Notes under the pieces: generated by a model
The model's input: only the letters and a program-made list of their open reading frames with translations
Databases searched by the model: none
What the model was told of the DNA's origin: nothing
Source: Acholeplasmataceae bacterium
GTDB lineage: Bacteria; Bacillota_I; Bacilli_A; Acholeplasmatales; Acholeplasmataceae
Assembly: GCA_023264085.1 (NCBI GenBank)
Contig: JALQTF010000011.1
Location: 1-36,522 of the forward strand
Length of the DNA: 36,522 bases
Direction of reading: 5' to 3'
Program-made: the position numbers and the translations under genes
Shown here: piece by piece, positions 6,081 through 31,216 of the stretch
How positions within the stretch are numbered: the stretch's first letter is position 1
Layout of the letters: each line of letters begins with the position of its first letter

Positions 6081-6111
6081 AAAATAGCCTTTAAAAGGCT
6101 ATTTTTTTTAC
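6080..6111. terminator. Bidirectional terminator between convergent genes
   Basis: AAAAATAGCCTTT-AAAAGGCTATTTTTTT. Confidence 0.85.
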
Positions 6112-8516
6112 ATGTCGTATTTAGATAAAATTTGTGCGGGAGTTTTATTGAGTAATAACCAAACTGGTAATAACCCTGCAATTAAATTCGAAACATACAC
6201 AACTATGATGCCACCAATGACTGAAATGAATGTGACATTAAACAAATTAAATTCTCCCAAGAAACTATCAGAAAGCAATGAAAATCCATAGGTCGCAATG
6301 CCATAACCAATAAGTGTGGTGATGGTTGATAGTAATAAGATTTCTATAACAAAAGCTCGCAAAATATCTTTTTTATACACACCAATCGCACGCATGATTG
6401 CGATTTCATATTGTCGTTTTACCAAACTTGAACGGATGACAAAATAAAATCCCAATCCTGCAAAACCTACAACAACAAGTGAGGTAGTGAGCGTTGAAAT
6501 CAGTGCCACTTGTTGTTCACTCTCAATAATTCTTCTAGCATTTTCTAACAAGTCTTCAAGTATTAAATCATAACCGACAAGCTCAGATTCTACAGCGTCT
6601 AAATCTGTAGTGTAAATGTAATATCTTGAGTTATTTTCAAATCTGAGTTGTTCTAAGTAATTCGCTGTGACATATACATATGGCTTTATATCTGTATCAT
6701 CATAAACACCACTAATCGTCACACCCTCTATTTCTAATGGGAAATTCATATTACTATTAAATATCCCAAGTGATGCAGGCACTAATAACGCCTCTTCAGT
6801 TGGTAAGTCACCATACAAAAGTGTGGATGTATCAAACCAATCGATGGACATATGTTGTGTGAGTGGATATGTTAAGAAATCAGCAAGTGCATCATTTGTA
6901 AAAATGACACTATAAGGAGCATCTACAATTCCTGAAATTGTAATGATCTCACCTTGATACATAAGGGATTCATTAAGTAGATGTTCATAAGACCAAATAC
7001 CAATATCTCTTCCAGCAGAACCATCCACTAAATTATCTGCAATTGCGCTTGTGATTAATATTTCATTGTTCGTTGCAGGCATAGAACCATAAACAATGTC
7101 TAAATCATGTAATCGATACAAATCTAGTAATCCAGAAACGGCTGTGTTATAAATGAGACCATTAGGTCTTAAAAAATTGATTTGAATAGAACTTCTATTA
7201 TACGTGTTGATATATGTGATATTTTCTATTTGTTTTAGTTGGTCGAGTGTTGGTTGTGTTGTATTGACATCTTCTGGATCTACAAGTGACACTTGCGCGT
7301 ATCCTGATGGCAAAATCATGTACTGTTCTGGTGACATAAACAACACACTTGCAAGTGATGTTGCTGCAAAAGCAATCACGGCACCTGCAAGAACAAAACT
7401 CGCCAACATGATTTTTCCTCTTCTAGATGTACCAATGACTTTTTCTAACGCCATAAAAATGGCTTTTTTTATGGAGAAAACAAAATGCTGCTTTCTTGGA
7501 ACACCTTCCAAACTCAGTTCTTCATTATTGAATGAAGACTCAGATAACATTTGTTTTTGATGTGTTGCTTTCTTACCCTGTTTAATTTGAATTGTAGAAA
7601 ATTCATCTAACAATTTGACTTTTTTTAATGCACTATCCACTTTAATATAAATCGTATCATTTTTAACAATAAACGTTGCATGCATCTTTTTGTCTTTTTG
7701 TTCTGAATAAACATCAATACTTTGTTGATGAGATGTTTCAAGTGTTTCTTTATTTAAGTCACCTAAATAAATCGTCTCATCGTATTTCATTTGATAATCG
7801 CCACGATCATGACTGTCATCATCAGAGATGATTTTCCCATCAGAAATTTTAATAATTCGATCACCATAAAAATTCGCAATTTCTTTTTCATGGGTGACCA
7901 TAATGACAAGTTTATCTTTCGCGATAGATTGAATGATATTCATGACTTCAATGGTATTTTGAGAATCTAAATTACCAGTCGGTTCATCGGCTATAATCAT
8001 ATCTGGATTTTTAACAATCGCTCTTGCAATAGCAACACGTTGCTGTTGTCCACCTGATAATTGAAGTGCATTTTTCTTTCTAAAGGTATACATATTCACT
8101 GCTTTTAAAACATAATGCACACGTGACTCTATAAGTGCTTCATCTGTAATACCCATCAGTTTTAATACATAAGCGACATTATCATAAACCGATAAATCAG
8201 GTAATAAATGATAGTTTTGAAAAATATACCCAATATGGTGATTTCTTAAATGATCCCATACTTTTGATTGATATCTAGAAATGTTTTTATCAAACATAAA
8301 AACATGTCCCTTATCAAATTTATCAAGTCCACCTAAAACATTTAATAATGTTGTTTTTCCTGATCCTGAGGGACCTAACAACATGACTAAACCTTTATTA
8401 GGTAAATCTAAGGTCATTTGATTGATCACATGAATCTGATTCGATTTGTTTTTATTAAAATATTTATTCAAACCTGAGATTTTAATAAGAGGTATCATTT
8501 GTGACATATTACTCAC
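6108..8516 (-). CDS. ABC transporter, N-terminal NBD fused to FtsX/MacB-like permease
   Basis: [39 protein letters not shown]; then TM, large extracellular segment and three C-terminal TM helices. Confidence 0.92.
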
Positions 8517-10743
8517 CTCCTGAAGTCAAACTTTGAATGACCGTTTGATGAAACACTTTTTTGTTAAATCTTAATCCTAACCATAATCCTAATAGTGTGA
8601 TCGCCAATACTAAAATAATGTAATCTGAAACACCCATATATTCAATCGTTAAGCCATGATCAGGGACAAACATCACGATTGCATTTAGTATCAAAATTGA
8701 TAATATCAGTCCAATCATTGAAAGTAAAATTTGCTCAATAATAACAAGCATCGATAGCGTTGATTCATGGGCCCCGACGGATCTAAAAATAGAAAAATCT
8801 TTTTTTCTAGCATTCATCATGTTTTTAGTTACTGCATGAATGACAGCATATAGGAAAAGCCCAAGAATGAGTAAAATAATCACTGCAACAATAGCTAATA
8901 TAAACACTAAGAATTCTTGTAAAAATCCTGGGATATTTGCTGGATAGTACACTTTATATACTTGTGCATCCAATGACTCAATAAGTCTTGTTCCAGCGAG
9001 TTGATTCTCAACAGAAACACTTGCAATTGCAGAAGGCAATGATACATATTCTTCTTCGACTTCCAACAATAATGTTTGAATGATCTCATCAAATACCGAT
9101 GTAGATATGCTTCCATAATTAAACTCATTTTCTAATATTCCATTTGCAAAAACCAATGTTTTATTCATTGTCACGGTTTGTGTGAGCGAATCAGCTTGAA
9201 CCTCAACTTCAAGAGACAATGGTGTTTCAAATATATCTTCATTATCTAAATACACATCATAGCCGTTGTATTCAGTTCTCGCATCATAAATAAACACTTC
9301 TTGATTATTGATAGTAATTTGTAAAGAATTCTCAAGCGATTGTTTTACTTGCAATTTAAGACTTTGATCAAGCGATGGTTCTGTAGGATAACTTTGTGAA
9401 AGATAGGCATCTGAAAAATAAATTGTTTGTAAGTCATTATCAATGATACCAACAATTTTAAAATATCCGATACCTGCCTCTTCTAATGCATTTTTATCCC
9501 AATCCCAAATACGATCACTTGTAAGTAAAACTGTTTGATCAATGTCGATACCCCACCAATAATTACTCACAACGATTTCATCCATTGCAATTGGTAATCT
9601 TCCTTCTGAAAGCATGTTTGAAGTTAACATGTGAGCACTATCGTTAAATCTATAATTCATCATATCCATCACTTCATCGTTATTATAAAAAGTGACTAAG
9701 TTAAAACTTGTATCATTATGAAATAATGCGCCATATGCATATACTTTATTCACATCTCTAAAGCTCTCAATGATGTTGATGTCCTCGTTGGTGAGTGGAT
9801 TGCCATCTCTTCTTTCAACAAGGACGCGACTACTCGGTACTGATGGATATGTCCCTGACTGTTCTAACCCTGTTGTACGAAGTCCATATATTTGATTAGA
9901 ATAAACGATCGTAAAAACACTGATCGCAATAAGCATTAAAAACAGCATAAAGAAAAATCTTTTAGGCTGCGCAAATAAGTTTCTCATAGAAAATTTCAAC
10001 AAATCAAAAATATTGAGTTTTTTTGATTTATCTTGTTTTGTTACGGAAACTTCTTGATGTGCTTTTAATTGAATATCTTCGACAACTTCACCATCAGACA
10101 TTTTGATTCTTCTCGTTGCATATGGTGCAACTTGATCAAATTCATGCGTAACAACAATCACGAGTTTATCCTTAGATATGTCATTTAATAAAGACATAAT
10201 TTGTTCAGCGGATGTTTGATCTAAGTTCCCTGTCGGTTCATCACACACGATGATTGGTGTATCTTTGGCAAGTGCTCTCGCAATGACTGCACGCTGCTTT
10301 TGACCACCTGATAATTTTGATGATTTTTGATTTTTTTGTTTTGTAAGTCCTACTTGATCAATAAGTTTTAATGCACGTGCTTTTCTTGCTTTAGAAGGAA
10401 ATCCCTGCAATTCTAGTGCTAACATCACATTTTGTAACACTGTATACGAATCAATAATATTATAGTTTTGAAATACAAAACCAACATTTTCACGACGATA
10501 TGTCTCAAAATCTTTAATTTGATAATGGGACGTTTCTTCAGAGAAAATAAACATTTCTCCTTCTTCATACTTGTCTAATCCAGAAAGTACATTAAGTAAC
10601 GTTGATTTCCCACTTCCTGATTCACCAGTAACTGCAATAAACTCACCCATATGAAACGTGAGTGAGATATGTTTCATCCCAACACTTACATTATTTTCTG
10701 ATTGATAATATTTTGATACTCTTTCTAATCTTAGTGCTTCCAT
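8509..10743 (-). CDS. ABC transporter, N-terminal NBD fused to FtsX/MacB-like permease (probable partner)
   Basis: [39 protein letters not shown]; same architecture; overlaps next gene by 8 nt. Confidence 0.92.
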   Translation of the reverse strand: MEALRLERVSKYYQSENNVSVGMKHISLTFHMGEFIAVTGESGSGKSTLLNVLSGLDKYEEGEMFIFSEETSHYQIKDFETYRRENVGFVFQNYNIIDSYTVLQNVMLALELQGFPSKARKARALKLIDQVGLTKQKNQKSSKLSGGQKQRAVIARALAKDTPIIVCDEPTGNLDQTSAEQIMSLLNDISKDKLVIVVTHEFDQVAPYATRRIKMSDGEVVEDIQLKAHQEVSVTKQDKSKKLNIFDLLKFSMRNLFAQPKRFFFMLFLMLIAISVFTIVYSNQIYGLRTTGLEQSGTYPSVPSSRVLVERRDGNPLTNEDINIIESFRDVNKVYAYGALFHNDTSFNLVTFYNNDEVMDMMNYRFNDSAHMLTSNMLSEGRLPIAMDEIVVSNYWWGIDIDQTVLLTSDRIWDWDKNALEEAGIGYFKIVGIIDNDLQTIYFSDAYLSQSYPTEPSLDQSLKLQVKQSLENSLQITINNQEVFIYDARTEYNGYDVYLDNEDIFETPLSLEVEVQADSLTQTVTMNKTLVFANGILENEFNYGSISTSVFDEIIQTLLLEVEEEYVSLPSAIASVSVENQLAGTRLIESLDAQVYKVYYPANIPGFLQEFLVFILAIVAVIILLILGLFLYAVIHAVTKNMMNARKKDFSIFRSVGAHESTLSMLVIIEQILLSMIGLILSILILNAIVMFVPDHGLTIEYMGVSDYIILVLAITLLGLWLGLRFNKKVFHQTVIQSLTSGGE

Positions 10744-10779
10744 GTTTCCTCCATTAAAAAATAATATCCCTTTTGTGTG

Positions 10780-11427
10780 TCAAAGTATTGACATCAAAAC
10801 TTCATCCAAAGTCTTTACATCATTGACTATGTGCATCGGGTTTAATTGAAGTAGTTGATTTTCCGTTCTGTAGCCATAGCTTACGGCAATATGGTCCACA
10901 TTTAATGCTTTTGCTACAATAATATCTGGCTCTGAGTCACCGATATAAATAATATCATCTTTAGAAATATTCATGGCATGACATACATGTAAAATCATAT
11001 CAGGAGCCGGTTTAATAGGAAGTGCATTTGTCATTCCCAACACAACATCAAATATATCTTTAAAGTAATACGCTGATAAAGATTGTACTAAATGATGATA
11101 TTTATTGGAAACAACTGCAAGTTGATAAGATAATTTAAGCTTTTGTAATAATTCAATGATTCCATCATAGATAACAGTTAAATCTTGATGATTGGCATCA
11201 TAATATGCTTGATAAGTATCATGAATCGATTTGACATGATTATCAGATGCTTTAGGTGCACATCTCTTAATCATTTGCATGGCCCCAGATCCAACACTTT
11301 GGCGAACATGATCTACTGATACTTCTTTATATCCAAATGTTTTTAATCCAATATTCACTGCCTGATGAATATCGTAAATGGTATCTAATAAAGTCCCATC
11401 TAAATCAAATATCATTGCTTTTTTCAT
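10780..11427 (-). CDS. HAD-superfamily hydrolase (phosphoglycolate phosphatase-like)
   Basis: IFDLDGTLLDT, VVSNK, YIGDSEPDI motifs; ATG at 11427 has a GAGGAAA SD, better than the TTG at 11439. Confidence 0.9.
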   Translation of the reverse strand: MKKAMIFDLDGTLLDTIYDIHQAVNIGLKTFGYKEVSVDHVRQSVGSGAMQMIKRCAPKASDNHVKSIHDTYQAYYDANHQDLTVIYDGIIELLQKLKLSYQLAVVSNKYHHLVQSLSAYYFKDIFDVVLGMTNALPIKPAPDMILHVCHAMNISKDDIIYIGDSEPDIIVAKALNVDHIAVSYGYRTENQLLQLNPMHIVNDVKTLDEVLMSIL

Positions 11428-11854: not shown

Positions 11855-11880
11855 AACACGTCATTGACGTGTTCTTTTTT
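11855..11880. terminator. Bidirectional terminator after tmRNA and convergent CotH gene
   Basis: AACACGTC-ATT-GACGTGTT flanked by A and T runs. Confidence 0.8.
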
Positions 11881-13334
11881 TATATGAAGGGTGATCTAAA
11901 CATCGCATCTCGATACCATATCGATCGTTCATATATGAATGTTTTATTCCACAAAATATGATCTGCAAACGATTCAAACTCAACCATGAACATCGGATTT
12001 GGCCACAAATATGTATTAAAATCATTCCATCTTTCAAAATTTTCTTCTGCATAAGGTATTAAAGAGATACCTAAAACTTCTATCAATGTTATAAACTGAG
12101 GTAAAATTTCATTGTAATAATATAGCATTTCTTTTTTAAACATGTCTTGAAATGCATCTAATTCAATAATCGTAAAAAACCATGACATCCTAGGATCAAA
12201 AGCTAAAAAGAAACCTTCAGGATTATAATAATCATCTCCGACATAATCAGCATTCCCTAATGCAAAATCAAAATCCCAAACAGGACCAAATTTTAACAAG
12301 TTACTTTCACGATACATAAATACAGATAATCCCCAAGCATCAACATTTTTAAATAATTCTTGAATGATCATGTATGTTGCCCAATTTTTTAAATCAATGT
12401 CAGGATGAATGATACCGTTTCGTAAATCATTTAAGACATTCTCTAAATACATTTCAATCGTATCAAGTGTTTGAGAATCCAAATTTGCACTTCTTTTTAT
12501 GGCATAAGGTGCGCCATCCACACGAATAAATAAATCATCAGATGGCTCCCAATCAATACGGTGATCAAGTTCTAAGGCAAATGTTAAAGGATCTTCATTC
12601 GATTTGATATATGTACGATCTTCAATCAAAGCATATAATCCCTGGTAATCACCATTGATGTATAAGGATATATACCTTGTATCTTGTGTGATCTCTAAAG
12701 ATAGCATTTTAGCAAGTTGATGGGCTAATACATCTCGCATCAATGATTTGTCTGCTGCCATTCCAATGAGCAAATAATCATGATGTGGTTTTAATCCCAT
12801 CATGTCGATATCTTGATCAAATGATATCCGGTATGATTTTTTATCATACGTAAACCAATTAGAATTTCCTCTTCCACGAATATTTCCTAATGATTCAAAA
12901 AGTTGACTATCATTTTGATAAAGTGAAATCAATGTTTGTGAGAAAGTTTCTTTTTGAATATTTTCAAAATCAACACCATTTAAATGAATTTCATAATTAT
13001 GTTTTGGAGAATATGCACTTAATACATAAATTTGATCAACAATTTTGAATGTATCATCTCTTGCATAAATAATGACTTCAATATCCATAAATTGGTCATA
13101 GATGGGTCGATCAAACGTTTTTAAATCATCTATCATTTGGTCATTTATTTCATACGAAATCGTTGTTCCTTCAAATAAAGGAAGCGTGCTTTCATGTGTG
13201 ACATCTTGATTAATAAAATTCTCAACATGTGGTAAAACCTCTTCTAAAGTATGTCTTGCTGTGAGGTTTTTTTGACAAGAAACAAGAAAAATTGTGATTA
13301 AAATAATAATGCTATTTATTAAAAATGATTTCAT
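11880..13334 (-). CDS. CotH-kinase-family lipoprotein
   Basis: Lipobox FLVSCQ; RGRGNSNW, YRISFD, LYINGDYQGLYALIE, GPVWDFDFALGN typical of CotH. Confidence 0.88.
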   Translation of the reverse strand: MKSFLINSIIILITIFLVSCQKNLTARHTLEEVLPHVENFINQDVTHESTLPLFEGTTISYEINDQMIDDLKTFDRPIYDQFMDIEVIIYARDDTFKIVDQIYVLSAYSPKHNYEIHLNGVDFENIQKETFSQTLISLYQNDSQLFESLGNIRGRGNSNWFTYDKKSYRISFDQDIDMMGLKPHHDYLLIGMAADKSLMRDVLAHQLAKMLSLEITQDTRYISLYINGDYQGLYALIEDRTYIKSNEDPLTFALELDHRIDWEPSDDLFIRVDGAPYAIKRSANLDSQTLDTIEMYLENVLNDLRNGIIHPDIDLKNWATYMIIQELFKNVDAWGLSVFMYRESNLLKFGPVWDFDFALGNADYVGDDYYNPEGFFLAFDPRMSWFFTIIELDAFQDMFKKEMLYYYNEILPQFITLIEVLGISLIPYAEENFERWNDFNTYLWPNPMFMVEFESFADHILWNKTFIYERSIWYRDAMFRSPFI

Positions 13335-25758: not shown

Positions 25759-27171
25759 TCAAGTCGTAGCGTGTAATTGATTTAAAACAAATTCTGATTT
25801 TTGTGAAATGTAATCTGATAAATTTCTATATCCAAAAGGTAACGACATCATGGAATCTAAAACATCGTTATCATAAATTGCCTTATAGTTATCAATAAAT
25901 GATGTGAAAAAATCGAATGTAAATGATGTTTGAATCAGTATTTCAAGATGATCTTTATATTGTAGTTTAAAAGTATCTATTTCAAATAATACTTCCATTA
26001 AAGGATGGTTTATATCTTGACCAGCTAAGTATGAAAAAATCTCTCCATAATGATAGAGTGTATTAGTGATCAGTTGATTTTCAAATACAGGTGCGCCATC
26101 CCATCCTTGACCTAAACTATGATCAAGATCATATGGGATAACATGATAGGTTTCATTAACGATATCAAAATACAAATAATAATTATTAGCCATGGAACGA
26201 AAATCATCTGGGTTCCCTAGTAAAAAGCTTACTGCAAACATTTTTGATAATGCTTGAATATCCATATTTGCTTCAATAAATGCTTTTTTAAAGTTCATAT
26301 CATCACTCGCCAACACATCAATGAGTAAATGAAGTGCTTCATGTGAAGATGTATTCTTATTTGTTTTTAAATCATATGCAGGACGATAATTGATGGAGAC
26401 ATCTTTAATACCTATAGACCCTTCCATCAAGTTTGCTAAATTTGCAGGACCAAATTGTTGCCATAATGATTTATACAGATCACCAACTTCACCCTCCTTA
26501 TCATCAAACCGTCTTTTAATAAACCATTCATCTATAGGTTCAAATGCAGTCATGATACCAACATTATAAATTATTTGGTCAATATGAACTTCCACATAAA
26601 TGAGCGTTGCACGTTGTGCAACCACATCATAAGCGTCATATAACTTGAGTGCACCAAATTCATTCATATAAGTTTCATCGTAGTTACGATTATATTTTAA
26701 ATCTAGTTCTTCTAAACCAAAAAGAAAGCCTTGACGTTCAATTGTTGTAAATTGCTGATTGAACTTGAGTTTAAAATGATTAAGTTGTAAGTTACCTTCA
26801 TCATTTAAAAAGCGATTCCTCGAAAGATTACCTCTCGTTCTAAACGGTACATCTAGCATGTCAATCGTACCAAATTCGTCTTGATACTTGATAGTCGAAG
26901 CTATATATTCATCACTTCTATAATTACCAAATTGATTAAAATATGTCTGCATTGATTGATCTAATAATAAAGCATCCTCTTGTGTAATGGAAATGATTAA
27001 TGTTTTATGGTTTTCATGATTAAAAAACCGATCATAATTATTATCTAGCAAGATCTCTTCTTCATTGATAATCACTGGTTCCGTTTCTGGTATGAGCGTT
27101 GTCTCACATCCACTAAGGAATATACTAATGATAACGATTAAATTTAAACTCAAATATTTCTTAAACATCAT
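25759..27171 (-). CDS. CotH-kinase-family lipoprotein, coupled to the two-component system
   Basis: Lipobox FLSGCE; VPFRTRGNLSRNRF, KLKFNQQF, VIPYDLDHSLGQGWDGAP; overlaps HK 3' end by about 11 nt. Confidence 0.82.
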   Translation of the reverse strand: MMFKKYLSLNLIVIISIFLSGCETTLIPETEPVIINEEEILLDNNYDRFFNHENHKTLIISITQEDALLLDQSMQTYFNQFGNYRSDEYIASTIKYQDEFGTIDMLDVPFRTRGNLSRNRFLNDEGNLQLNHFKLKFNQQFTTIERQGFLFGLEELDLKYNRNYDETYMNEFGALKLYDAYDVVAQRATLIYVEVHIDQIIYNVGIMTAFEPIDEWFIKRRFDDKEGEVGDLYKSLWQQFGPANLANLMEGSIGIKDVSINYRPAYDLKTNKNTSSHEALHLLIDVLASDDMNFKKAFIEANMDIQALSKMFAVSFLLGNPDDFRSMANNYYLYFDIVNETYHVIPYDLDHSLGQGWDGAPVFENQLITNTLYHYGEIFSYLAGQDINHPLMEVLFEIDTFKLQYKDHLEILIQTSFTFDFFTSFIDNYKAIYDNDVLDSMMSLPFGYRNLSDYISQKSEFVLNQLHATT

Positions 27172-28510
27172 AAAATCTCAATACCACTTGTACACCTTCT
27201 TTTATATTTCTAATGTAAAATGACCCGTCATGTGCTTTCATCACCTGATCCACAATCGCTAACCCTAACCCTAGTCCATCAGAGTTCACTTTATAAAATG
27301 TTTGATTTAGAAATGGTAAATGTTCATCCTCTATTGGTTTTGCTTCATTGAAAATCAATATATCAAAATAATCTTGATATTGTTGATACTTAATTTCAAT
27401 CATTGCATTTATATTTCTAAATTTTATCGCATTGTTTAAGACATTTATTATCACTTGTCTTATACTCAGTGCATCAATATGTAGTATTTTAGCGGATTTA
27501 GGTTTAATATGGTCAAATTTGACGTCACGATGTATCAATGATAATTCATTTGTGATATCTTCTACAAGTGTATAAATCCCTAAATGCTTTTTGTTCAAGG
27601 TGTTAGTATGGCTTTGCAATTTAGAGATAAGCATGACATCATCCGTCAATTTCTCAATAAGTTTAATTTGAGTATGAATCATTTTATAATACATTTCAAC
27701 TTTGTCAGTGTCACTTGTAACTGTCAATAAATCGATTGCTGATTGAATCACAGAAATAGGTGTTCTAATTTCATGAGATATGTTTGCAATAAATGTTTTT
27801 GATAATTGTTCTTGTTTTTTTTCTTTTTCAAGTTCATTTTTCAGTGTGTCAATCGAATCTTTTAACCTTTTTTTCATAGATATAAAAGAAACCATCAATG
27901 TGTTGAACTCATCGTTTCTACGATTATAAGGTACTGACAGATCATTTGATTTAGTTAATTGTATGAGTTGATGAATTGGTTTTGAAAATCGTTTTGAAAT
28001 GAACCAAGCAGTTAAAATTGACATGATGATGCCTAAACTCGTGATATAGAGGAATAGATCATTAATGAGAGAAATACTTTGATTTAGACCTTCTAATGAA
28101 CGTTGATATACAAAAACATATTCTGTTTTAATCATTAAAACTTGCATAAAATTTTGATCTAATGTATCGATTTCTTCAATGATGATGCTTTCTTCGTTCA
28201 GCTGAATGAGTATTCTAATTGGCAAATTACTAGTATTGCCATAAAGACCTTGACCTGTCAAATCATAAATCATCATTCGACCATTATTCGTAGATAAAAA
28301 GTTATTTACAATTTCTAAATGATTATCTGGGTCACTTGAATTCAAATCTAAATATAAACCTTCTATCGTTTCAATCATTTTAGATTCTAAATCATTTTTA
28401 TAAATCGAAGGAACTAATAAGTTTTGAGCGACACCTAAAATAACAAAAACGATTACCATTATCCCAACGATAAATAACAAAAGTTTATAAAAAATAGGGA
28501 ATTGTTTCAT
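27161..28510 (-). CDS. Sensor histidine kinase (TM-extracytoplasmic-TM-HAMP-HisKA-HATPase)
   Basis: FIANISHEIRTPISVIQSA H-box, VLNNAIKFRN N-box, GLGLAIVDQV. Confidence 0.93.
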   Translation of the reverse strand: MKQFPIFYKLLLFIVGIMVIVFVILGVAQNLLVPSIYKNDLESKMIETIEGLYLDLNSSDPDNHLEIVNNFLSTNNGRMMIYDLTGQGLYGNTSNLPIRILIQLNEESIIIEEIDTLDQNFMQVLMIKTEYVFVYQRSLEGLNQSISLINDLFLYITSLGIIMSILTAWFISKRFSKPIHQLIQLTKSNDLSVPYNRRNDEFNTLMVSFISMKKRLKDSIDTLKNELEKEKKQEQLSKTFIANISHEIRTPISVIQSAIDLLTVTSDTDKVEMYYKMIHTQIKLIEKLTDDVMLISKLQSHTNTLNKKHLGIYTLVEDITNELSLIHRDVKFDHIKPKSAKILHIDALSIRQVIINVLNNAIKFRNINAMIEIKYQQYQDYFDILIFNEAKPIEDEHLPFLNQTFYKVNSDGLGLGLAIVDQVMKAHDGSFYIRNIKEGVQVVLRFYDV

Positions 28511-29157
28511 CTTTGAACCTCAAAATAATAACCCACTCCAAATACAGTATGAATGCAAGAAACATGAGATAACTTATGTCGAATGCGTTTAATTGTTGTA
28601 TCTACTGTGCGTGTATCTCCATCAAATAAATAACCCCAACATGTCTCAAGGAGTCTTTCTCTTGAAATCACTTCTTTTGGGTGTTCAAAGAGATATTGCA
28701 ACACTTCAAATTCTTGTTTGGTAAGTTTTGTTTTATTTCCATCAACATTAACTTCATATGTATGCCTAATAAGTTGAAAGGCTGTGTGATTCGAATGTAT
28801 TACAGATAACATGTGTTCGATTCTTAAATGTAATTCTTTTAATGAAAATGGTTTTGTAAGGTAATCATCAGCGCCAAGTTCTAAACCGAATATTTTATCT
28901 GAGGCTTCACTTCGAGCAGTTAACATGATTACAGGAACTGAAAATGATTGTTTAATCTTTCTCAATACGGACCATCCATCTAAATCATCGAGCATCACAT
29001 CTAATATGACTCCATCGATCGTTTTAGAGGTTATCACATCCATAACCTCAGAACCCTTTGATACTAAAAAAACATCATATGAATGAGATGAAAAATAATC
29101 TTTTAAAAGCGTTTGTAAGTTGGTATCATTTTCAACAATTAGAAGTTTTTTATTCAT
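28507..29157 (-). CDS. OmpR/PhoB-family response regulator
   Basis: LLIVENDTNLQTLL, VILDVMLDDLDG, VIMLTARSE, GADDYLTKPFSLKEL; C-terminal winged helix LTKQEFEVLQYLFEHP...DTRTVDTTIKRIRHKL. Confidence 0.96.
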   Translation of the reverse strand: MNKKLLIVENDTNLQTLLKDYFSSHSYDVFLVSKGSEVMDVITSKTIDGVILDVMLDDLDGWSVLRKIKQSFSVPVIMLTARSEASDKIFGLELGADDYLTKPFSLKELHLRIEHMLSVIHSNHTAFQLIRHTYEVNVDGNKTKLTKQEFEVLQYLFEHPKEVISRERLLETCWGYLFDGDTRTVDTTIKRIRHKLSHVSCIHTVFGVGYYFEVQR

Positions 29158-29215
29158 ATCTATATTTTATCATGATGAAACCATAAAAAAACGTTCGTTT
29201 GAAAATTGTTAGATG

Positions 29216-29250
29216 TTTGACACAACTTTGACATAAATCTTGATTATAAT
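29216..29250 (+). promoter_or_regulatory. Direct repeat TTTGACA-N4-TTTGACA upstream of -10 TATAAT (29245-29250)
   Basis: 29216-29222 and 29227-29233, 11-bp period; covers the -35 region. Confidence 0.6.
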
Positions 29251-29274
29251 GAATGTAATTCTTGGAGGTATCTC

Positions 29275-31179
29275 ATGAAAAAAATATTATTACTTTTTGT
29301 TGCTTTTCTATTTGTAATCACTTTAGCTTCTTGTGATCAAATGATCACACATTATTCAGTTGACTCGCATTCACAATTATCTTATGTAAAAGATTATGAT
29401 CAATTTAAACAACTCATCGAACAAAATCAAGATAGTTACAATCGGTTTTATCCTGAAGCTGTTTTTGAAAGTGTTGAAATGGATGATAATACAACTTCTG
29501 AAAAATCAGATGTTTCTACGACAAATGTACAAGTCCAAGGGATTGATGAAGGCGATATTGTTAAAGTAGATGATACAAGAATATATATGTTGAGCTATGA
29601 TGCATTTTATGTAATAGATATAACTACAGATGAAATGTCATTGTTGCTCTCTCAGTCACTTGAATCTTCAAGAGAGGATTCAAGTTATACATATTATCAA
29701 GAACTTTACATAACAGAAAACGAAGTCATTGTAATAGGTCAGCGTTATTCTTATTATTTACAATCTAGAGATGGTCAAACAAAAGAAAGTGATTTTATCG
29801 ATATTGAACCTTGGTACTACTTTGGTTTACCTGAATCTGTTATTGAAATATACGATAAAGCATCCCTTACATTACAAGATACCTTTTTGGTCTCTGGATA
29901 TTTATCAAGTTCTCGTTTAATTGATAATCGTTTATATGTCATTACAAAACAAGATATTTTTCTTTATGAGGATATTGATCCAAGACCTCAACTCACGCAT
30001 AATTCCGATGTTTATATGCAACCTTATGAAAATATTCAATACATTGCTTCTTTAGAAACTCTTGAAAACTATACCAATATATTATTTGTTGAATTCGATG
30101 ACACACTAACATATGAATTAAAAACATATTTAGGTCAAAGTTATTGGGGTCATACTTATGTCACTTTTGATAGTATTTATTTTGCAGGTAACACGTATCA
30201 GTTTGATGAATTGACGAATACGTATGTTTCTAAAGGTGTCATTATACGCTATATTATCAATACTGATGGTTCAACTTCCTTTGGTGGCTATCAAACATAC
30301 GAAGGTTATATCATCAATCAATTTGCAATTGATCAATATGATCAAACATTACGACTTTTAACAACAGATGGTTGGGGAGACACAGTAGTTAATCGTCTGT
30401 ATATATTTTCTTTAGATTTGAATGACAACAATGAGCCTATAATGAATCAGTTAGCATTATTAGATGAAGGTATCGGTAAACCTAGAGAACGTGTTCAATC
30501 TGTACGATTTAATGAAGATATCGTGACTGTTGTAACCTTTGAACAAACAGATCCACTTTATATCATCGATATTTCAAATCCATTACAACCACTAATTACA
30601 AGTGAGCTTGAAATTACTGGTTTTGCAACCTATCAGCACCCTTGGAAAAATGATACTTTGATTAATATTGGTTATGAAACAGATAATGAAGGTCGAATTA
30701 TTGGTCTAAAAATCGCTATGTTTGATACTTCTGATATTTCCAATCTTAACCAAATTGGTTCTGAATTAACATTTTTAAATGGTAATCAAGGTTGGACATA
30801 TTCTGAAGCTCTTCACAATCATAAAGCTTTACTTTTCTCTGAATCTCACGATTTCTTTGGATTTGCGATGACACGTTATCAATGGATTGAAACTGCCGAA
30901 AATTTTAGTTATATGAATATTCAAGAATATATGTTATTTAATATCGATTTAAACAATACAAATTTACCACTAAGTGTTAAAGCAACTTTTTCTCATCAAT
31001 TTTTTATGCAAACACTCACTTTAGATTCAAATGCGTATTATCTATCTTATACGTTTGGCATTCAACGTGCAGTTTATGTGAATGATATCATCTACTTCAT
31101 TTCACTTGGTGGTGTAACATCATATAATCTAAATGATTTAACAACGATGACAGATTCATTATTGTTATATTCAGAATAA
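29275..31179 (+). CDS. Secreted lipoprotein with beta-propeller domain (Beta_propel/PF09826-like)
   Basis: Lipobox TLASCD; TNVQVQGIDEGDIVKVDDTRIYMLSYDAFYVID characteristic motif; SD ttggagg. Confidence 0.82.
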   Translation: MKKILLLFVAFLFVITLASCDQMITHYSVDSHSQLSYVKDYDQFKQLIEQNQDSYNRFYPEAVFESVEMDDNTTSEKSDVSTTNVQVQGIDEGDIVKVDDTRIYMLSYDAFYVIDITTDEMSLLLSQSLESSREDSSYTYYQELYITENEVIVIGQRYSYYLQSRDGQTKESDFIDIEPWYYFGLPESVIEIYDKASLTLQDTFLVSGYLSSSRLIDNRLYVITKQDIFLYEDIDPRPQLTHNSDVYMQPYENIQYIASLETLENYTNILFVEFDDTLTYELKTYLGQSYWGHTYVTFDSIYFAGNTYQFDELTNTYVSKGVIIRYIINTDGSTSFGGYQTYEGYIINQFAIDQYDQTLRLLTTDGWGDTVVNRLYIFSLDLNDNNEPIMNQLALLDEGIGKPRERVQSVRFNEDIVTVVTFEQTDPLYIIDISNPLQPLITSELEITGFATYQHPWKNDTLINIGYETDNEGRIIGLKIAMFDTSDISNLNQIGSELTFLNGNQGWTYSEALHNHKALLFSESHDFFGFAMTRYQWIETAENFSYMNIQEYMLFNIDLNNTNLPLSVKATFSHQFFMQTLTLDSNAYYLSYTFGIQRAVYVNDIIYFISLGGVTSYNLNDLTTMTDSLLLYSE

Positions 31180-31216
31180 AATAAAAGGACAATAATTTAA
31201 TGGTTATTGTCCTTTA
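31180..31216. terminator. Bidirectional terminator
   Basis: AAAAGGACAATAA-tttaatgg-TTATTGTCCTTT. Confidence 0.8.

Follow-up and report, generated by a model that had tools for sequence, protein, structure and literature searches.

The β-propeller lipoprotein gene of this Acholeplasmataceae bacterium is preceded by a perfect -10 element and, in the region of the -35 element, by two copies of one 7-mer, which raises the question of which protein reads these copies and how RNA polymerase is brought to the promoter. The gene lies in a window of 36,522 nucleotides (the whole stretch of DNA analysed), belonging to an assembly of 907 kb (G000) in which the recovered share of the genome is 84%. Among named genomes, those nearest to G000 are MAGs that bear the labels Acholeplasmataceae and Bacillota. 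A literature search found no functional paper on PF09826, the family of the propeller, and no literature on two-component boxes of Mollicutes or Izemoplasma.

Organization of the locus

Four genes are involved at the locus:
29275..31179, plus strand: β-propeller lipoprotein (PF09826), the putative target (open reading frame and domain search; lipobox-like signal peptide)
28507..29157, minus strand: OmpR/PhoB-family response regulator (RR), the putative binder (Response_reg and Trans_reg_C domains)
27161..28510, minus strand: sensor histidine kinase, the putative partner (HisKA and HATPase_c)
25759..27171, minus strand: CotH-family protein (PF08757), overlapping the kinase gene in the same apparent operon

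The RR, kinase, and CotH-family genes probably form one operon, because they overlap by 4–11 bp. The window contains two CotH-family lipoprotein genes (11880–13334 and 25759–27171, minus strand), one of them in the RR–kinase operon. A terminator-like bidirectional hairpin at 31184–31215 separates the propeller gene from the convergent TrkH gene.

The putative promoter of the RR gene faces the opposite direction:
29164..29169, minus strand: predicted -10 element TAAAAT, with TGA ahead (extended -10), kept in relatives

This extended -10 (TGATAAAAT, window 29157–29169, minus strand) adjoins the ATG, and a leaderless mRNA, starting at or next to the ATG, is predicted. The same predicted arrangement is found in G004 and L093, and G012 has a leader with GGAGG.

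Layout of the propeller promoter

The promoter reads exactly TTTGACA-N4-TTTGACA-N11-TATAAT at 29216–29250, in agreement with an earlier note on this DNA, which had described two identical 7-mers 11 bp apart, ending 11 nt before a perfect -10. The half-sites are separated by CAAC, and the elements are as follows:
29205..29211, plus strand: possible degenerate half-site 3, ATTGTTA, placed by its 11-bp register with the other two
29216..29222, plus strand: half-site 1, TTTGACA, predicted at -41 to -35 (read in the sequence, aligned with orthologues)
29227..29233, plus strand: half-site 2, TTTGACA, predicted at -30 to -24 (read in the sequence, aligned with orthologues)
29245..29250, plus strand: -10 element TATAAT of the propeller promoter (sequence, orthologue alignment)
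29264..29268, plus strand: ribosome-binding site GGAGG (sequence)
29275, plus strand: ATG of the propeller gene

The same note had held that no good -35 exists at the expected position, and this also stands. The hexamer at a 17-bp spacer, ACAACT (29222–29227), matches TTGACA at 2/6 positions, and a scan requiring at least 4/6 per hexamer and 9/12 overall lists no sigma-70-type promoter at the box. TTGACA itself occurs twice, but the copies stand 22 and 11 bp away from TATAAT, distances at which neither could serve that -10 as a normal -35. With the +1 near 29257, the two repeats are predicted to lie on one helical face of the DNA. Weaker, possible third copies in this upstream place are also seen in relatives, as TTTGTTA in G004 and TTTTTCA in G012 and G034.

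The perfect TTTGACA-N4-TTTGACA is a single occurrence in the 907,189 bases of G000, and likewise in the window, the next best sites of the assembly having two mismatches. Within the window, matches with up to three mismatches are not enriched (12 observed, 16 expected), so that the weak matches taken together are noise; what carries the case is position and conservation. Dinucleotide shuffling of the 150 bp upstream gives p = 0.0015 for an exact 7-mer that repeats itself with a period of 11 and lies 11 bp from TAnnnT. Over about 73,000 window positions, a pattern of 20 fixed positions scores 20/20 at the propeller promoter and 16/20 at the next best site; among the 32 promoter regions scored in the window, the top two are the propeller promoter (20) and an ABC transporter promoter (16). 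A looser pattern, TTKWCA-N5-TTKWCA-N11-TAnnnT with two mismatches, was dropped, since it gave hundreds of matches and in several genomes roughly equalled its reversed control.

Conservation of the box in propeller orthologues

The pattern of 20 fixed positions taken from the window promoter was applied to 150 bp ahead of each propeller gene, with 2,000 dinucleotide shuffles per region as the reference. Where a divergent RR gene adjoins the propeller gene, the scores are 20/20 in G001, 18/20 in G004 (p 0.0005), 16/20 in G012 (p 0.001), 15/20 in L093 (p 0.006), and 15/20 in L094 (p 0.0015), and in all of these the spacing to the -10 is exactly 7+4+7+11 nt. The box is absent upstream of all eight propeller orthologues that have no RR as a neighbour (G043, G048, G050, G159, L092, L095, L096, and L097; best p 0.18 to 0.99), for which gene neighbourhoods were inspected, G159 being judged from its upstream sequence alone. 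In G034 the layout is kept (13/20, p 0.09); the RR is not adjacent, and the contig starts just upstream. That genome also carries a second near-perfect box (TGTCACAGGATTGACACGTGTTCATGGTAGAGT, L143 1499–1533) upstream of another short lipoprotein gene. In G025 the propeller box is degenerate, and the orthologous RR frame (L033 752–1411) has an internal TAA stop; such a joint decay of RR and box is suggestive, as a single case in which a MAG error is possible.

Among these orthologues the presence of the box tracks the neighbouring RR. The layout could in principle be coincidental, at a constitutive promoter relying on TATAAT: TTGACA is common in promoters, and weak transcription is possible from TATAAT alone. 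This would require the same layout to have arisen by chance in four diverged orthologues, with p from 0.0005 to 0.006 each, and a second conserved promoter besides. Because the same spacing recurs before the diverged propeller genes with a divergent RR (G004, G012, L093, and L094), the repeat is not attributable to chance on this comparison; coincidence is largely refuted by conservation and is regarded as very improbable.

The aligned orthologues hold the spacing and the core and vary at position 5 (A/T). A half-site of TTTG(A/T)CAcA describes them best, and the perfection of the repeat in G000 is partly luck. The intergenic region 29158–29274 is 97.4% identical to that of G001, at fourfold-site identities of 63–67% in the flanking genes. 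Of 15 intergenic regions this one ranks first; hyperconservation was set aside as weak evidence, since others reach up to 96%.

A second box upstream of an ABC-FtsX operon

The earlier note had proposed looking for the perfect repeat at other promoters of the genome; the perfect form does not recur, but a 16/20 variant stands before an ABC-FtsX operon:
10761..10795, minus strand: second box GATGTCA-N4-TTTGACA-N11-TATTAT (16/20, the second-best window position)
8509..10743, minus strand: ABC transporter, ATPase fused to an FtsX-like permease, the first gene behind the second box
6108..8516, minus strand: second fused ABC-FtsX transporter, overlapping the first ABC-FtsX gene

A search pattern derived from the propeller promoters, TGWCAYA-N4-TGWCAYA-N9-TAnnnT with up to two mismatches, gives 44 matches in 12 genomes, compared with 11 for the reversed control. 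Matches with zero mismatches occur at one place each in G000, G001, G003, G004, G034, G160, and G161; six of these places are propeller promoters, and the one in G003 is the promoter of an ABC transporter gene orthologous to window 8509–10743. The ABC box is kept in four members of the genus, with p of 0.003 (G000), 0.0007 (G001), 0.0003 (G003), and 0.10 (G004). It is absent in G002, where no RR match of the box-linked type was found, and in the more distant transporter-bearing genomes that were read. In G003 the RR locus was not found though its ABC box is perfect; since the neighbouring TrkH is missing as well, a gap in that assembly is the likely explanation. The second box overlaps the 3' end of the upstream gene for a HAD hydrolase, the stop codon of which lies inside the second half-site, and part of the conservation of this box may thus be coding. 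The operon is situated about 18 kb from the RR–kinase locus; in a Bce-type (peptide-sensing) TCS-ABC module the ABC genes are adjacent and the kinase has no extracellular sensor domain.

A broader regulon was sought in G000. The other two-mismatch sites inspected lie inside genes or at gene ends away from promoters and have no evident promoter role, leaving the propeller and ABC-FtsX boxes as the sole sites in promoter position. The regulon in the recovered 84% of the genome thus looks like two operons.

Identity of the putative binder

The regulator next door, which the earlier note had named as of OmpR/PhoB type, carries the corresponding Response_reg and Trans_reg_C domains, and the box co-occurs with its divergent gene. 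Furthermore, the RRs beside boxes have a common recognition helix, RTVDT(T/H)(I/V)KR(I/L)R(Q/H)KL, and the RTVDTxxKRxRxKL form was not found in the three other G000 RRs read. The RR is 39–40% identical to those of L093 and L094, a level similar to that of paralogues, and in the tree they are joined by a weak node (0.26); the grounds for their putative orthology are synteny and the recognition helix.

Among the NCBIfam families shown, the RR reaches no equivalog cut-off, its best matches being YycF (in first place), RpaB, and PhoB. WalR (YycF) identity was rejected at a score of 169.8 bits against a cut-off of 340. WalR/VicR boxes have the consensus TGTWAH-N5-TGTWAH, and the B. subtilis PhoP boxes are TTAACA-like repeats; both are direct repeats in an 11-bp register, as here, but the present half-site has C/G where WalR has W.

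Another OmpR-family regulator, above all the phosphate regulator, might bind the box, which would then be a true pho box with the adjoining RR as a bystander. At least three more OmpR-type RRs and a PhoU are encoded in the assembly, and the half-site is similar to CTGTCAT of E. coli. However, no pst or phoU gene lies beside RR 28507–29157, which argues against membership in a Pho regulon, and G012 has a separate RR type behind PstSCAB-PhoU, with an apparent orthologue in G000 on contig C34, one of the three RRs whose helix differs. Meanwhile, TTTACA-type repeats stand before pstS in G004 and G012, and these promoters match the box pattern at 12 and 10 of 17 positions, respectively; the single pstS promoter read within the genus has repeats of the TTTACAT type. 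In the G004 pstS promoter (L220, about 12650), two copies of TTTACATTTCA 22 bp apart flank TGTCATGACTC and lie beside TATACT, and these repeats are a probable phosphate box of different wording. The G160 pstS promoter, which has its own adjacent RR, matches the box pattern at 15/17 and is a caveat to the non-phosphate reading. Since the Pst-PhoU RR is separate and the TTTACA-type pstS promoters score low, the propeller box probably does not serve this lineage as its phosphate box, and a literal pho box was rejected. With the differing recognition helices of the other G000 RRs, and a box whose presence follows the neighbouring RR, binding by another regulator appears unlikely.

Proposed mechanism and comparison with known systems

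We consider it likely that 29216–29233 is a tandem site for RR 28507–29157, which would recruit polymerase without a -35 and activate the propeller lipoprotein gene and the ABC-FtsX operon. The adjacent histidine kinase would phosphorylate the RR, and two (possibly three) phosphorylated copies would bind the 11-bp repeats head-to-tail on one face of the DNA. The bound RR would hold RNA polymerase, through sigma region 4, at a promoter with a perfect -10 and no -35, switching on the propeller lipoprotein; via the second box, the same RR would drive the ABC-FtsX operon at 10.8 kb. The sequence, the spacing, the conservation, the co-occurrence with the RR gene, and the second promoter are observed, and the binder, the dependence on phosphorylation, activation over repression, and the sigma contact are inferred.

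The reading as an OmpR/PhoB activator box, already offered in the earlier note, is borne out in its pho-box-type layout of two 7-nt repeats with an 11-bp period in the -35 place, at a fixed distance from the -10 in diverged orthologues; together with the RR co-occurrence and the common recognition helix, this layout points to the predicted binding. Supported refinements are the TTTG(A/T)CAcA half-site, the upstream third copy, the target at 10.8 kb, and a role other than that of the organism's phosphate box.

Alternatively, the RR might occlude polymerase at the propeller promoter, or mainly control its own divergent promoter, as a repressor or at a dual site. The box overlaps the -35 region and is separated by 47 bp from the RR gene's own -10, and PhoB represses or activates depending on position (PMC10294691). 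However, the propeller promoter offers no -35 to occlude, the clear cases all have 11 bp between box and -10, a constancy expected of an activator contacting polymerase, and no RR gene adjoins the ABC site; repression is therefore considered quite improbable.

Recruitment of polymerase by the phosphorylated RR, the preferred reading, is proposed by analogy with the PhoB and SARP layouts. The pho box consists of two 7-nt direct repeats 4 nt apart, or of two 11-nt units (PMC4415409). In PhoB-type promoters it stands in the -35 place (PMC3413638), which it replaces, PhoB contacting sigma (PMC4415409, PMC3413638), and strict spacing is noted for PhoB (PMC10294691). The present box resembles the class II-type E. 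coli pho box in its 7+4 repeats, its -35 place, and its similar word (CTGTCAT versus TTTG(A/T)CACA), but differs in consensus, in having no linkage to phosphate genes, and in the separate Pho-type RR of the clade. In the case of M. tuberculosis PhoP, whose protein is among the nearest solved RRs by sequence, tandem repeats (DR1/DR2) bound by an OmpR-family RR overlap the -35 in some promoters, with a third repeat in some (PMC3413638); the repeat word, the repeat spacing, and the regulon differ from those here. SARP activators such as AfsR have an OmpR-type DNA-binding domain and use direct repeats of 11 bp that stop 8 bp short of the -10 (PMC10936776), but they are actinobacterial and without a receiver domain, whereas the candidate here is a classical RR.

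Implications for the lineage

The mechanism itself is textbook, an ordinary kind of bacterial switch. The wider interpretation, to which we give an even chance, is that of an undescribed Acholeplasma-like two-component regulon, in which the RR–kinase–CotH operon would control the propeller and two fused ABC-FtsX transporters via TTTG(A/T)CACA tandem boxes, possibly as an envelope-sensing circuit of a regulator-poor lineage. An anonymous two-component system of uncultured Acholeplasmataceae relatives is thereby given a putative DNA word and promoter architecture, together with two putative target operons, and the uncharacterised PF09826 propeller lipoproteins gain a putative regulatory context, with ABC-FtsX co-control and a CotH-family linkage.
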